Assembly (NCBI GenBank): GCA_017413105.1
Contig: JAFPVA010000037.1
Span: 1-32,879, forward strand
From: Butyrivibrio sp.
GTDB taxonomy: Bacteria; Bacillota; Clostridia; Lachnospirales; Lachnospiraceae
Reading direction: 5' to 3'
DNA: 32,879 bases
Shown here: piece by piece, positions 1,675 through 10,937 of the stretch
Position numbering within the stretch: position 1 is the stretch's first letter
How the letters are laid out: the number at the start of each line of letters is the position of its first letter
Position numbers and translations under genes: made by a program
Notes under the pieces: generated by a model
Seen by the model: only the letters and a program-made list of their open reading frames with translations
Database searches by the model: none
Told to the model about the DNA's origin: nothing

Positions 1675-4227
1675 ATGGCAGTTGATGAAAAGGAATTGAT
1701 CAATGAACTGAATGTATATACCGGCCTTGATTCCTTTAACAGTTCTGAAGGTGAAAAAGAGCTGGAATTATGCGGAAAACTGGGAGCTGATGTTGAAAAA
1801 CTGAGAGCTTTTAATTTTAATGCCCTTCAGCTGGCAGAGATAAGAAAAGGTCTTGAAAATGATAAGGTTGATGTCAAAAAGTATCTGAATCCTAAATATT
1901 CCTGGACGGACATGGAGGAAATGCGTCTTGAAATGTCCCAGGGTATTGATATGACAAAGTACAGGGAGGAAGGTTTTGATAATCAGCAGCTTTATCAGAT
2001 AAGGGCCGGCCTTGTGGAGGGAATAGACGTCTCTATCTATGCCAGGAGAGAATATCTGGCAGATCAGATGAGAGAGTTAAGGAAGGGACTTTCAAAAAAC
2101 AATGGTGTGCCCATTATCTTTTTCCAGGATCCCCAGTTTGATTCGCTGCAGATGCGAGAGATAAGAAAAGGACTTCAGGCTGGTATAGATATCTCAAATT
2201 ATGCACTTTTGAATGTACCATATATGAAAATGCGTGCCATCAGGGAAAGCGCTGAGGATGGACTTTATTTTGATGATACAGAAATAGGAAAATATAATGC
2301 AGGCGTCCTTGACCAGATTCACAAGGCTTATCTGGACAAGGTTGATATCAGCGGCTATGTTCGAAGAAGATTTGATGCTGAGCAACTGGAGCAGATAAGA
2401 GTTGCGCTTAAAAAGAATCTTCATATAGAGAAGTATATCTCTCTGGATATGCGTGGAGATGCTATTAAGGAGATAAGGATAGGCCTCGAGGATGGCCTTG
2501 ATGTTGGCAGATATGCAGATGCTTCCTATGGTTGGCAGCAAATGTATGAGATGAGAATAGGCCTAGAGCATCAGATAGACATACTTCCTTACAGCAAACC
2601 TTTATACCGTGCTGATCAAATGAGGGAAATAAGGCTTGGTATCGAGGAAGGCGTTGATATATCCCGGTTTTCTTCCATGATGTACACGGCAAGGGATATG
2701 AAGCGCATCAGGGAAAAGCTTCTTTCCGGCGAGCTTCAGTCTGTTATTCTTGAGGATGGAAATGTTACTACCATAAGCGGCTCCGGGACCGGAATTGAAG
2801 GGTCAGTTCTTGACAGAACCGGTGGTGTTTCGGACCAGAGTATTCTTCTTTCTGACATGATACAGAACAGAGACGATTATTTATCTGTTTCTCAGAATCA
2901 GATGAAATGCTGGATAAAGCTTCCGCTTAGAAAGGATGGGATAAGCTATACCGAGGATATTATCCTGACTTTCCTTTTTAAAACGAAGATAGTAAAAGGA
3001 ATAGATAAAAATGCCATAAAAAAGATGCTCAGTAACCCTGATCCCACATTGAAATATCTTGTGGCTTCCGGAAAAGAAGTTGTGGATGGAGAAGATGGAC
3101 ATTACGAATACTTCTTTGACACAGATTATAAGAGCGAATTCAGTTATTTGCCGGATGGAAGTCTTGATTTTTCCAATATGAATATGATCCAGCAGGTAAA
3201 AGTTGGAGACAAGCTGGCTCTTTATCATAAAGCAACTAAGGGTGAGGATGGTTATAACGTTCATGGCGAGATAATCCGTGCAAAGAATGGAAAAGAAATC
3301 CCGATCTTAAAGGGCGACGGATTTATGATAATGAGTGACAGGGTAACTTATGTCGCAAAAGTGACCGGTGCCATCAGCATGGAAGATGGCATGATTAATG
3401 TCAAAAAGATCATGATTGTGCCTGAAGTTAAGATGACGGATAAAAAGATAAACTATGATGGTGTGGTTTTTGTCCGGGGAGATGTCAATTCCGGCAGTGA
3501 GATAACTGCAACGGGAGATATCGTAATTGGCGGGCACCTGGAGAGTTCAACCATCGAAAGCAGAGGAAATGTCATCATAGCCGGAGGTGCTACCTGCCCG
3601 GTAAGCGGAACAATCACGGCGGACGGAGATGTAACTGCCAAATTCTTTGAGGGAGTTACGATAAAAGGTAAGAACATATCGGCAAACTATTTTATTGACT
3701 GTAATATTGAGGCTAAGGGACTTGTAAAGACCTACGGCAGGAAGGGAATAATCTACGGAGGTGTATGTCAGAGCCTTGAGGGCCTTGAAACAGCAAATGT
3801 AGGCAATAAGACCGGTGTAAAGACTATTGTTACCCTGGGAGTCAGCGGAGCCCTTCTGACTGAGTTCAGCAAGATCCAGAAGGAACTCAGCAGAGAGGTT
3901 GAAAGTTTAAAGACGCTGGCTATTGAGAAGCAAAAGCTTGCCGAGATAGGATCTGGCGACAGGCAGATCATGCAGTGGAAGATAAAGGTCAACGCTGCCA
4001 TAGCTGCCAAGACCCAGACCATCAGAAAACTTGAGGCAAGGAAAAAGACCTTCGACGTGGAAATCCAGAAGGGAAACAGGGCAAAAGCCGTTATCGGGGA
4101 AACAGCCTATGCCGGTACCATTATCGTAATAGAAGGAGTGGCCTATAGGATTCCTGAGGACCGGCGTACTTTTGACAAGATGATCTTTAAGATCGATGCA
4201 AACAAAGAAAAGATCATAATGCTGTAA
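1675..4227 (+). CDS. FapA-like DUF342 protein with about 12 N-terminal 26-residue repeats
   Basis: 850 residues. Residues about 45-360 are a tandem array of roughly twelve units of about 26 residues. The common pattern is F/Y-x-x-x-Q-M/L-x-x-I-R-x-G-L-x-x-G-I-D-I/V-S-x-Y, for example QMREIRKGLQAGIDISNYA. Residues about 395-850 resemble DUF342/FapA: an N-terminal domain, then short Gly/Ile/Val turns typical of a beta-helix (GDIVIGGHLESSTIESRGN), a long coiled coil at about 725-800, and a short beta tail. There is no signal peptide or membrane segment, so it is probably cytoplasmic. FapA homologues have been linked to polar flagella or surface control in some bacteria, but the biochemical role is unsettled. 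It stands alone between two terminators with its own promoter. The domain call is firm; the function is not known. Confidence 0.85.
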   Translation: MAVDEKELINELNVYTGLDSFNSSEGEKELELCGKLGADVEKLRAFNFNALQLAEIRKGLENDKVDVKKYLNPKYSWTDMEEMRLEMSQGIDMTKYREEGFDNQQLYQIRAGLVEGIDVSIYARREYLADQMRELRKGLSKNNGVPIIFFQDPQFDSLQMREIRKGLQAGIDISNYALLNVPYMKMRAIRESAEDGLYFDDTEIGKYNAGVLDQIHKAYLDKVDISGYVRRRFDAEQLEQIRVALKKNLHIEKYISLDMRGDAIKEIRIGLEDGLDVGRYADASYGWQQMYEMRIGLEHQIDILPYSKPLYRADQMREIRLGIEEGVDISRFSSMMYTARDMKRIREKLLSGELQSVILEDGNVTTISGSGTGIEGSVLDRTGGVSDQSILLSDMIQNRDDYLSVSQNQMKCWIKLPLRKDGISYTEDIILTFLFKTKIVKGIDKNAIKKMLSNPDPTLKYLVASGKEVVDGEDGHYEYFFDTDYKSEFSYLPDGSLDFSNMNMIQQVKVGDKLALYHKATKGEDGYNVHGEIIRAKNGKEIPILKGDGFMIMSDRVTYVAKVTGAISMEDGMINVKKIMIVPEVKMTDKKINYDGVVFVRGDVNSGSEITATGDIVIGGHLESSTIESRGNVIIAGGATCPVSGTITADGDVTAKFFEGVTIKGKNISANYFIDCNIEAKGLVKTYGRKGIIYGGVCQSLEGLETANVGNKTGVKTIVTLGVSGALLTEFSKIQKELSREVESLKTLAIEKQKLAEIGSGDRQIMQWKIKVNAAIAAKTQTIRKLEARKKTFDVEIQKGNRAKAVIGETAYAGTIIVIEGVAYRIPEDRRTFDKMIFKIDANKEKIIML

Positions 4228-5287: not shown

Positions 5288-5779
5288 GTGTTAGATTTTA
5301 GTCCAATAAATATTATATGTACTGTAGCCAATATACTTATTCTCTTTTTGGTCTTCAGGATTTTTCTTTTTAAACGTGTGGATGCAATCCTGCTCAAGAG
5401 AAAAGAAGAAGTCGATGAAGCTACGAAGGCAGCTGATCAGGCTATGGCTAAGGCGGTTGAGACCAAAAAGGAATACGAGAATAGAATTGCCCTCGCTGAT
5501 GAGGAGAAGGAACAGATTCTCGCGGACATTAAGAAACAGGGCTATGATGAGTACGAGCGTATCGTGAGTGACGCCAAAAAGAAGGGCGAGCAGATCATCA
5601 CCGAGGCTAAGCATAATGCTGAGGTTGAGAATGAGAGAGCAAAAGAGGTATATGCTGCAGAACTTACGGATATGGTTGTTAATGCGGCCTCTAAGATTGC
5701 TGCCACCAAGCATAGCACGGAGGAAGACAGGCAGCTCTATGACAAATTCATAAGCGAAGCTGGAGTTGATAATGAGTGA
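5288..5779 (+). CDS. atpF: ATP synthase Fo subunit b
   Basis: 163 residues, GTG start, preceded by AAGGAAGG. One N-terminal membrane helix (about residues 5-27) is followed by a long charged helix with coiled-coil character ([20 protein letters not shown]), as in the peripheral stalk. The length is normal for b, so it is not a b-delta fusion of the mycobacterial kind. The last 8 bases overlap atpA. In most bacteria atpH (delta) comes next; here there is none, and a delta-like piece sits at the start of AtpA. Confidence 0.93.
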
Positions 5780-7559
5780 AAAGTTAAAAGCAATCCTGCG
5801 TTATGCAAATACTGCGCCCAGTCCTGAGCAGATTTGCAAGATAAAAACTGTGCTTTCCAATAAATTTGACACCACTGAGATTGAACTGGAGGTTCATGAA
5901 GACAGTTCTATCGGTGGTGGTTTTATAGTATCCTGCGGTAATTTTGAATATGACTGGAGTGACCTTGGAAGAGCAAGACAGCTTCGGTCTGAACTCAGTA
6001 AGCATGGCCGTAAGAGCGGAGATAATGCTACCGACAGGATAATCGGCATGCTCAAAAATAAGGTAGAGAACTTTACTCTGGAGGTAAGCGACAGGGAAGT
6101 AGGAACCGTTGAGTGGGTCGGTGATGGTATCGCCAATGTTAAGGGAATTGAGCACACTTTTTATGGCGAGATCATAGAATTTGAAGACGGAACCAGAGGA
6201 ATGGCTCAGGATATCAGAGAGGATCATATTGGATGTATCCTTTTTGGCAATGACACCGGAATCAGACAGGGAACAAGGGCTGTAAGAACCTATAAGGAAG
6301 CCGGAATCCCTGTAGGAGAAGCTTTCATCGGAAGAGTAATTGATGCCCTTGGAGCACCTATTGATGGACTTGGGGATATCAAAGAATCCGGTTACAGAGC
6401 TGCTAATGAGCCTGCTCCCGGTATTATTGAGAGACAATCAGTAAATGAACCAATGGAAACGGGTATCCTTTCTATTGATACCATGTTCCCTATAGGAAGA
6501 GGTCAGAGAGAGCTTATAATTGGCGACAGACAGACAGGAAAAACGTCTATTGCCATTGATACCATAATCAATCAGAAGGGCAAGGATGTTATCTGCATAT
6601 ATGTTGCAATAGGTCAGAAGGCCTCCACCGTTGCCAAGATTGTACAGACTCTTAAAAAGACAGGGGCTATGGACTACTCTATAGTGGTATGTTCCACAGC
6701 TTCAGATAGAGCGCCTCTTCAGTACATTGCACCTTATTCGGGAACTGCCATGGCTGAGTATTTCATGCATCAGGGCAAAGCAGTTCTGATAGTATATGAT
6801 GATCTTTCAAAGCATGCGGTGGCTTACAGAGCTCTGTCGCTTCTATTGGAGAGATCTCCCGGAAGAGAGGCTTATCCCGGAGATGTATTCTATCTGCACT
6901 CAAGGCTTTTAGAGAGATCAAGTAAGCTTTCTTCAGAACTTGGGGGAGGATCCATTACAGCCCTTCCTATTATTGAAACTCAGGCAGGAGATGTATCTTC
7001 CTATATCCCTACTAATGTCATTTCCATTACTGACGGTCAGATATTCCTTGAGAGTGATCTGTTCTTTGAGGGTATGAGACCTGCGGTCAATGTTGGTCTT
7101 TCAGTATCAAGAGTAGGAAGTGCTGCTCAGACAAAGGCTATGAAGAAGGCTGCCGGAAGTATAAGGGTTGATCTTGCCCAGTATCGTGAAATGGCTGTCT
7201 TTACCCAGTTTAGCTCTGATCTTGATGAAACTACCAAGAAACAGCTGGCCCATGGAACTGTACTTATGGAACTTTTGAAGCAGCCCTTAGAGCATCCTAT
7301 CGCCATGCATGAGCAGGTAATCATCCTGGTGGCAGTTGGATCCGGAAGACTTGACATGATCCCTGTAGGGCAGATAAAGAGCTATAAGGAGAGACTTCTT
7401 GCATATTTCAATACGGAGCAGGGAGAAATCTGTCAGGAGCTCATAAAGAGCAGGGATTTGTCTGAACAGCTAAGACACAAGATAATAGAAGCGGTTGACA
7501 GCTTTAATGATCTGGAAAACAAAAAGCTCAAGGAAGAAATTGAGCATATGAAGAATTAA
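5772..7559 (+). CDS. atpA: ATP synthase F1 subunit alpha with N-terminal delta (OSCP) C-terminal-like domain
   Basis: 595 residues from the ATG at 5772, which overlaps the atpF stop; a TTG at 5766 is also in frame. Residues about 1-78 match the C-terminal domain of the delta subunit: [19 protein letters not shown], then [15 protein letters not shown] and a final helix [11 protein letters not shown]. This parallels the usual LS-x-EQ, D-x-S-x-x-GG-x-x-x-x-x-G-D and R-x-x-L-x-x-L features. From about residue 85 it is an ordinary alpha subunit ([33 protein letters not shown], Walker [10 protein letters not shown]) of about 510 residues. The six-helix N-terminal domain of delta is missing, and no separate atpH lies in the operon. 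Alpha is certain; the delta-like domain assignment is by eye but strong. Confidence 0.93.
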
Positions 7560-10391: not shown

Positions 10392-10937
10392 ATGTTTATT
10401 AAGAATTTTAAAAGATTGTTGATTTCTACTGTCGCAGCCTTTTGCGGCATTGCGTTATGTTGCGGATGTGGAAATAAGTTAGACGAAGGACTTGAGAATT
10501 ACAAGGAGAGTATGACAGAGTTTTACAATAAGCTTTCCTACTATGATGCATCAATGAACGGAATTGATGCTTCATCAGAGGATGCCAAGCTTCAGCTTCT
10601 TGGCTATCTGGATGAGATGAACGATACCTATAAGACAATGGCGGCTCTTACAATTCCTGAGGAGTTCGACGGCATTTCAGACATAGCGGTTGAAGCTGCT
10701 GACTATATGCAGATGGCCAATGAATGTTATCATCTGGCCTATGACGGAGCATTTGATGAAGACAACGAATATCTGGCCAGCCAGTATTATCAGAGGGCAA
10801 ACAGCAGAGCAAGGGTAATGCTTCAGGTATTACACGGAGAGGTGCCTACCGGTGAAGGGGTTACAGTTACCACTGTGGAAGCAGGTCAGTTTGATACTAT
10901 AGGAGATGAGAGTGACGGCAATCAGCAGGAAGAGTAG
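10392..10937 (+). CDS. Predicted lipoprotein of unknown function
   Basis: 181 residues. Basic residues and a hydrophobic stretch (FKRLLISTVAAFCGIALCCGC) form a lipoprotein-type signal, with a Cys-rich lipobox-like ALCCGCGN near residue 27. The mature part is acidic and predicted all-helical (DEGLENYKESMTEFYNKLSY), ending in a Glu/Asp/Thr-rich tail. I do not recognise a family. There is no terminator between atpC and this gene, so it may be co-transcribed with the ATP synthase operon. The 3' end overlaps the degraded acyltransferase by 32 bases. Confidence 0.7.
   Translation: MFIKNFKRLLISTVAAFCGIALCCGCGNKLDEGLENYKESMTEFYNKLSYYDASMNGIDASSEDAKLQLLGYLDEMNDTYKTMAALTIPEEFDGISDIAVEAADYMQMANECYHLAYDGAFDEDNEYLASQYYQRANSRARVMLQVLHGEVPTGEGVTVTTVEAGQFDTIGDESDGNQQEE

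Follow-up and report, generated by a model that had tools for sequence, protein, structure and literature searches.

A delta C-terminal domain fused to ATP synthase subunit alpha in Butyrivibrio, and its possible bearing on peripheral-stalk number

The closest described counterpart of the enzyme considered here was made in the laboratory. In an engineered Bacillus PS3 FoF1 (Nat Commun 2025; PMC12229609), delta residues 105-178 were joined to the N-terminus of alpha, and the delta N-terminal domain and the separate delta subunit were removed. According to the parts of that report on which we draw, each fused domain binds b2, and cryo-EM revealed particles with single, double and triple stalks, the triple ones being rare; subunit a was raised 2.2 times and subunit b 1.8 times, the H+/ATP ratio was 5.8 as compared with 3.0, and activity was lower. 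The authors state that all ATP synthases known so far have one a subunit per complex, and the delta N-terminal domain is thought to limit stalk number by breaking the three-fold symmetry. They also guess that nature may use extra stalks, naming one species and two database entries (Acidaminococcus fermentans; UniProt G4Q3K6 and A0A1I2C5T3) with a delta-alpha fusion that lacks the delta N-terminal domain, so this kind of fusion is already in print (PMC12229609). A phrase from the title of the paper recurs in PMC12018189 as a reference entry.

Two other systems invite comparison. The mycobacterial b-delta fusion is likewise a covalent change of the peripheral stalk that involves delta (PMC5709465), but in that case b is the partner of delta, and alpha remains a chain of its own. 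N-ATPases are encoded in F-type operons without a delta gene that lie beside a main ATP synthase, and differ in having a longer b (PMC5706428). For the butyrivibrios themselves, Hackmann and Firkins recorded all ATP synthase subunits in 62 of 62 genomes, and the available part of their text mentions no fusion (PMC4478896). Among titles and the starts of abstracts in the open-licence literature, we found no report of a full-length delta-alpha fusion, of a triple fusion, of repeated domain loss or of the Butyrivibrio distribution described below, which leaves their absence unproven.

A delta domain at the head of AtpA

The window, by which we mean the whole stretch of 32,879 nucleotides that was analysed, comes from a draft Butyrivibrio assembly and carries a complete F-type operon in the order a-c-b-alpha-gamma-beta-epsilon, with atpH absent and atpF overlapping atpA by 8 nt, ATGAGTGA (Table 1). 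An earlier note on this DNA had described the same gene order and overlap, and had proposed that the first 78 residues of AtpA are the C-terminal half of delta (OSCP) and that the six-helix N-terminal half is missing; the operon coordinates bear out the former, and the profile search of the AtpA N-terminus that it suggested supports the latter. In the whole protein the match to PF00213 scores 27.4 bits; residues 1-86 scanned alone score 29.8 bits (E 7.4e-7, cut-off 22.3), and the OSCP/delta family is their only match in Pfam at E <= 10. The same residues match eight NCBIfam families, all below their own cut-offs, of which seven are delta models matched C-terminally and the eighth is unrelated and weak (E 0.18). 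The 12-residue delta core that the earlier note had pointed out corresponds to residues 46-57. A profile of separate deltas from the same operon type (16 of 20 loci, with L103, L114, L117 and L118 left out) matches the window at delta positions 97-169 of 170 with 56 bits, and because this match starts at position 97 the N-terminal half of delta is absent from the window's AtpA. The remainder is an F-type alpha, as TIGR00962 is matched from residue 88 onwards with 751.3 bits against a cut-off of 484.45, and PF02874, PF00006 and PF00306 are all above cut-off. AtpA therefore has an in-frame delta C-terminal domain at the alpha N-terminus, in the absence of both the delta N-terminal domain and a separate delta in the operon, which is the plan termed deltaDeltaN-alpha.

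Table 1. Features of the ATP synthase operon in the window
Feature	Coordinates	Strand	Evidence and remarks
atpB, subunit a, 229 aa	4332..5021	+	PF00119 E 6e-44; MRLFGN segment, arginine present
atpE, subunit c, 71 aa	5050..5265	+	PF00137; without side-chain Na+ ligands at positions 32 and 66
atpF, subunit b, 163 aa, sole b gene of the operon	5288..5779	+	PF00430 E 1e-11
atpA, deltaCTD-alpha fusion, 595 aa	5772..7559	+	ATG start, GGAG before start
delta/OSCP C-terminal domain match	5820..5996	+	AtpA residues 17-75 match PF00213 positions 114-172 of 172; 9jc1_I aligns across the junction
Linker, delta domain to alpha N-terminal helix, about residues 79-86, limits approximate	6006..6029	+	Start of TIGR00962 match; 9jc1_I alignment
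Alpha proper, starting near residue 87, with an intact Walker A GDRQTGKT	6030..7556	+	TIGR00962 751.3 bits, residues 88-579
atpG, gamma, 308 aa	7592..8518	+	PF00231 E 4e-86
atpD, beta, 463 aa	8534..9925	+	PF00006 E 1e-74
atpC, epsilon, 143 aa	9929..10360	+	PF02823 and PF00401

Comparison with known structures leads to the engineered enzyme. The best PDB match of a profile of the natural domain, linker and alpha helix is 9jc1_I, an engineered delta-alpha fusion (E 3e-10), and the alignment runs across the junction (7-102 of the chain paired with 9-105, with one two-residue and one single-residue gap); the PS3 delta 6n2y_I (E 1.5e-7) and the delta 5t4o_L (E 1e-6) rank lower, and 9vkp_d, named 'subunit b-delta', is a weak match (E 0.02). 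When the whole AtpA of the window is compared with the PDB, 9jc1_I comes third by E-value, after two plain alphas, and among the 60 chains listed it alone covers the extension, in one stretch (11-574 to 9-571). From the molecule names of the chain and its three copies, we infer that 9jc1 is the structure of the engineered PS3 enzyme. The window's enzyme and the engineered one thus share the deltaDeltaN-alpha plan and are collinear over nearly the whole protein. They differ in that the latter is man-made and has had its epsilon C-terminal domain removed, whereas the former has its own linker, an intact epsilon and a longer gamma (308 aa, whereas gamma has 279-287 aa in the 12 canonical operons that contain all of it). 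Membership of the N-ATPases was considered and rejected: the window's alpha scores 596.1 bits against TIGR03324, 'alternate F1F0 ATPase', which we take to stand for that group and which has a cut-off of 750.5.

In 20 copies from the genus (of 22 available, with the near-copy L020 and L031, which the motif search missed, left out), 75 columns align without a gap and 15 are invariant, which argues that the extension is not a chance similarity. As judged from comparisons of the delta domain with the window in 18 of the 48 truncated-fusion loci in named records, those with at least 83% protein identity to the window, omega is 0.10-0.21 in 14 loci and saturated in the other four, and by this measure the fused domain is under purifying selection. 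The delta-alpha fusion in the window is real.

Three neighbouring genes are recorded here for completeness. Directly 3' of atpC (10392-10937) lies a lipoprotein-like gene of 181 aa that matches nothing in Pfam at E <= 0.1. By tblastn it is matched in all 33 of the loci L121-L156 that reach an epsilon gene and in no full-fusion locus among those searched, some of these stopping shortly past epsilon; it is possibly an extra component, possibly a mere neighbour. Upstream of atpB, at 1675-4227, is a FapA-domain protein of 850 aa (PF20250, PF03961), the N-terminal 400 or so residues of which consist of short repeats of the type QMREIRxGLxxGIDVSxYA. Positions 1-1503 encode the C-terminal portion of a PEP-utilising enzyme (PF00391, PF02896), which continues beyond the Pfam domain in an additional lysine/alanine-rich tail of about 70 residues.

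The fusion in Butyrivibrio, its family and its phylum

The genomes surveyed are drafts of mixed quality, and the window's own assembly is 94.9% complete with 7.3% contamination. A PF00213 search of that assembly at E <= 10 found no separate atpH; its two matches both head fused alpha frames of about 600 aa. The second of them, on contig C60, shares 95.7% identity with Butyrivibrio sp. Su6, whereas the best-scoring match of the window's copy, among the best six matches of the loci fetched, is 77.0% identical, and the operon on C60 is therefore probably a contaminant of the bin.

Homologous loci in named records, isolates included, carry Butyrivibrio titles. Among 79 genomes of the genus, 74 have a PF00213 match at E <= 1 (71 of them above cut-off) and 71 have atpA at E <= 1e-100. 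We defined a high-quality set as at least 90% complete and at most 5% contaminated (47 genomes, 44 with atpA), and every one of these 44 encodes a fused alpha of about 600 aa. Forty additionally encode a canonical alpha of about 510 aa and a full delta of about 180 aa; the remaining four (G030, G053, G055 and G059; 95-99% complete) have the fused atpA only and no full delta. The delta match of the fused alpha is below cut-off in one genome (G005). In another (G014, 99% complete) the fused alpha match contains an in-frame TGA (C6:216358-218064), either a sequencing error or a broken copy. The 13 canonical operons fetched from the genus have the order a-c-b-delta-alpha-gamma-beta-epsilon with a separate delta, although one (L048) is cut inside gamma. 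A full-length atpH elsewhere in the genome, which the earlier note had named as a refutation, is absent from the window's assembly, while most relatives do have one, in a second, canonical operon. The picture in the earlier note needs correction in that the design is not isolated; it occurs throughout the Butyrivibrio with an F-type alpha that were searched and in many other Lachnospiraceae.

We surveyed the family in 299 genomes, about one per genus. The extension profile has matches in 139 of these; since matches were listed to about E 4e-4, the figures by frame length are lower bounds. Fused alphas of 576-647 aa occur in at least 39 genomes, of 669-758 aa in at least 21 and of 787 aa in at least one, so that the survey of AtpA lengths proposed in the earlier note gives fused-size alphas in at least 61 of the 299; the remaining matches listed are mostly separate deltas. 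In a set of 398 genomes from the phylum, 61 match the extension profile at E <= 1e-4, and outside Lachnospiraceae a fused-size frame was found only in two (G627 and G635).

To describe the loci we distinguished four states: a separate delta (S), a full-length delta-alpha fusion (F), a deltaCTD-alpha fusion (T) and a b-deltaCTD-alpha fusion (B). The 60 loci fetched comprise 40 of fused size (24 T, 15 F and 1 B) and 20 in state S. The 15 F loci contain the whole delta (from profile position 1-16 to 166-169), and in the 20 S loci the genes follow the same order; L103 breaks off within alpha, and two c genes are present in L115 and L117. Two T loci, L078 and L079, come from families other than Lachnospiraceae. 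A second collection, of named records, holds the best 80 of 235 loci, pre-selected by the motif EYDWSxxGR[AIL] and used for states, naming, selection and start sites and not for the tree; it comprises 48 T, 31 F and one fusion cut by a contig end (L148). With B. fibrisolvens 16/4 set aside, the 36 loci titled Butyrivibrio are 35 T and the cut fusion, and state F is found in B. fibrisolvens 16/4 and in all 10 loci titled Pseudobutyrivibrio, including P. ruminis DSM 9787.

Fusion, domain loss and a triple fusion

A tree was inferred from the alpha core and beta, with the delta part excluded (83 rows, 960 columns; IQ-TREE, LG+G4, lnL -53931.4), and was rooted on the canonical rows together with two rows from other families. 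A quick tree of 84 rows had left out the near-copies L017, L020 and L025, the cut locus L103, and seven of the 13 canonical loci (L037, L039, L040, L042, L046, L047 and L048); L079 was additionally left out of the IQ-TREE set for its long branch. The separate-delta enzymes form a basal grade, followed by the full fusions, and the truncated ones lie among these in 11 places. One separate-delta locus, L101, is placed beside a full fusion, a position that would need a split or a second fusion. If the N-terminal domain was never regained, the best tree requires 11 losses of it, and at least four when only branches with an ultrafast bootstrap of at least 95 are considered. Forcing all truncated rows (plus B) into one clade gave a tree 344 lnL units worse, which was rejected (AU p 1.8e-68), whereas forcing all fused rows together cost 11 lnL units and was not rejected (AU p 0.36). 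The constrained searches were shorter than the free search; the quick tree led to the same conclusions, with p 0.0005 for the truncated rows and 0.944 for the fused ones. The backbone has low bootstrap values (29-48), and we read the tree as suggesting that a complete delta was fused to alpha in an ancestor and that the N-terminal domain was then lost repeatedly. On the quick tree L079 sits on a long branch apart from the fused group of Lachnospiraceae, which suggests an independent origin for its fusion; in both genomes of its family, alphas of about 605 aa and of 533-556 aa occur together.

The single B locus goes one step further. In a 96% complete draft genome, the sole one of its genus in the survey (G138), one frame of 778 aa (L095:2058-4391) consists of ATP-synt_B at residues 9-137 and OSCP at 131-249, followed by the alpha domains. 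The junction is open in one frame and has stops in the other two, and G138 has no other PF00430 match above cut-off, seven weaker matches falling below it. As this is a single draft genome, an indel at the junction is possible. By stoichiometry, such a b-deltaCTD-alpha protein would put a b chain on every alpha, with b:alpha at 1:1.

Coupling ion and stalk number

The ligands of Na+ in the c ring of F. nucleatum are Glu32, the carbonyl of Val63, Glu65, Ser66 and one water (PMC3692424). At positions 32 and 66 the window's c has I and A, as against E and T in the four canonical-operon c subunits aligned; in other aligned c subunits of the window's operon type, whether fused or with a separate delta, position 32 is I or L and position 66 is A, with the exceptions of a group with long c subunits (M/T) and the distant L079 (D/A). 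Because side-chain Na+ ligands at position 32 (Q/E) and position 66 (S/T) are absent from the window's c and present in the canonical ones, we predict, on this motif argument only, that the window's enzyme uses H+ and the canonical enzyme of the genus Na+. A 2020 study of Pseudobutyrivibrio ruminis reportedly argued for separate Na+ and H+ circuits.

We asked whether either enzyme follows an ion pump. RnfC is encoded in 77 of the 79 genus genomes and in 47 of 47 of high quality; as these include the four fused-only genomes, the idea that the canonical Na+-type enzyme tracks Rnf is ruled out. With the PF00346 subunit as a proxy for Ech (64 of 79 genomes; 44 of 47 of high quality), presence of the fused alpha and of the proxy agree in 45 of 47 (43 with both, two with neither, and one discordant genome each way, G020 and G039). 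We treat the association as weak; its one-sided hypergeometric value is 0.008, uncorrected for kinship.

Two groups of unusual c subunits came to light in the survey. In a divergent group of T loci (L074, L075, L077, L078 and L096-L099), subunit c is 120-142 aa long, carries an N-terminal extension that resembles a signal peptide and contains the motif F(I/V)ET(A/V)(I/V)IY. In L117, from another family, a c-type protein of 185 aa, apparently two tandem c hairpins, adjoins a single-hairpin c gene.

We favour, with a probability of roughly 0.55, the reading that the window encodes an alternative, probably proton-coupled F-type enzyme in which only the b-binding C-terminal domain of delta is left, attached to the N-terminus of alpha, an arrangement that would allow several stalks. 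The earlier note's three delta C-terminal domains on each F1 are supported by stoichiometry, and each of the three alphas would then offer its own b2 docking site. In ordinary enzymes the delta N-terminal domain sits on the three-fold axis atop F1 and disrupts the symmetry; in its absence two or more b2 stalks could assemble on one F1, each with an a subunit of its own. Several stalks would mean more protons per ATP, and ATP could be made at low proton-motive force. We infer the step from architecture to stalk number: given the engineered enzyme and the match to 9jc1_I, most probably every alpha provides a dock for b2, and stalks beyond the first can be added. In support are the four genomes whose only F-type alpha is the fused one, with no full delta, and the existence of separate delta, full fusion and C-terminal domain alone as states within one operon type.

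The strongest alternative, though we think it somewhat doubtful, is that b2 and a engage just one of the three fused delta domains and leave two empty; the fusion would then do no more than hold the stalk on F1 and render the N-terminal domain dispensable. The fused operons examined have a single a gene and a single b gene, and perhaps no more than one stalk is built. Delta-alpha fusions of full length occur widely, in Pseudobutyrivibrio and others, and keep the N-terminal domain; fusion in itself therefore implies no multiple stalks, and a fused single-stalk state was probably the evolutionary starting point. Even in the engineered enzyme, single- and double-stalk particles accompany the rare triple ones; on the other side, that enzyme, of the same plan, does take up extra stalks (PMC12229609), and repeated loss of exactly the symmetry-breaking domain, together with b-deltaCTD-alpha, would fit several stalks better. 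The relative divergence of the alpha N-terminal helix is higher where delta is fused than where it is separate (truncated 2.59, full 2.68, separate 2.00; Butyrivibrio alone 3.21), and truncated fusions as a whole do not exceed full ones.

It is improbable that plain alpha is made too, from an internal start near Met93 or by proteolysis, leaving only one or two fused copies per F1. Met93 is found in 33 of 49 aligned truncated-fusion alphas, and in the window AGGA precedes it. Yet it is not invariant, and a start there would delete part of the alpha N-terminal helix. The median computed ribosome-site strength of the internal Met (-3.5, for the 35 loci out of 49 that have one in range) resembles that of control codons (-3.15) and is weaker than that of the gene start (-6.0, a value favoured by being the best of several candidate starts). 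With Met not invariant and a site strength like that of control codons, we set the internal start aside.

Very improbable, in turn, is that the full delta of the canonical operon serves the fused enzyme in trans and the fused domain is vestigial: although 40 of the 44 high-quality genomes with atpA have both operons, the other four have no full delta, and the fused domain is under purifying selection, with its core residues conserved in two sets, the second of which was itself pre-selected by EYDWSxxGR. A frameshift, misassembly or chance similarity, which the contaminated draft origin of the window might suggest, has a negligible chance of being the explanation and is refuted by independent genomes, with a fused alpha in 44 of 44 high-quality genomes that have atpA and in named isolate records.

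Returning to an enzyme with more than one stalk, a broader proposal can be offered tentatively, as something a little short of an even bet: that Butyrivibrio and many Lachnospiraceae have a natural H+ ATP synthase in which each F1 bears two or three b2 stalks and likewise two or three a subunits; that it evolved repeatedly by fusion followed by domain loss; that most Butyrivibrio cells run it alongside a conventional Na+-type enzyme with a single stalk; and that one lineage also fused b, giving each alpha its own membrane anchor. If this is true, multi-stalk ATP synthases are not solely a product of engineering. The survey adds many genera of one family, cultivated rumen bacteria included, with the apparent steps preserved in living species, and the existence of natural multi-stalk ATP synthases becomes directly testable on purified enzymes with built-in controls. 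It would also bear on the ATP yield that butyrate-forming rumen bacteria obtain from a weak proton gradient.
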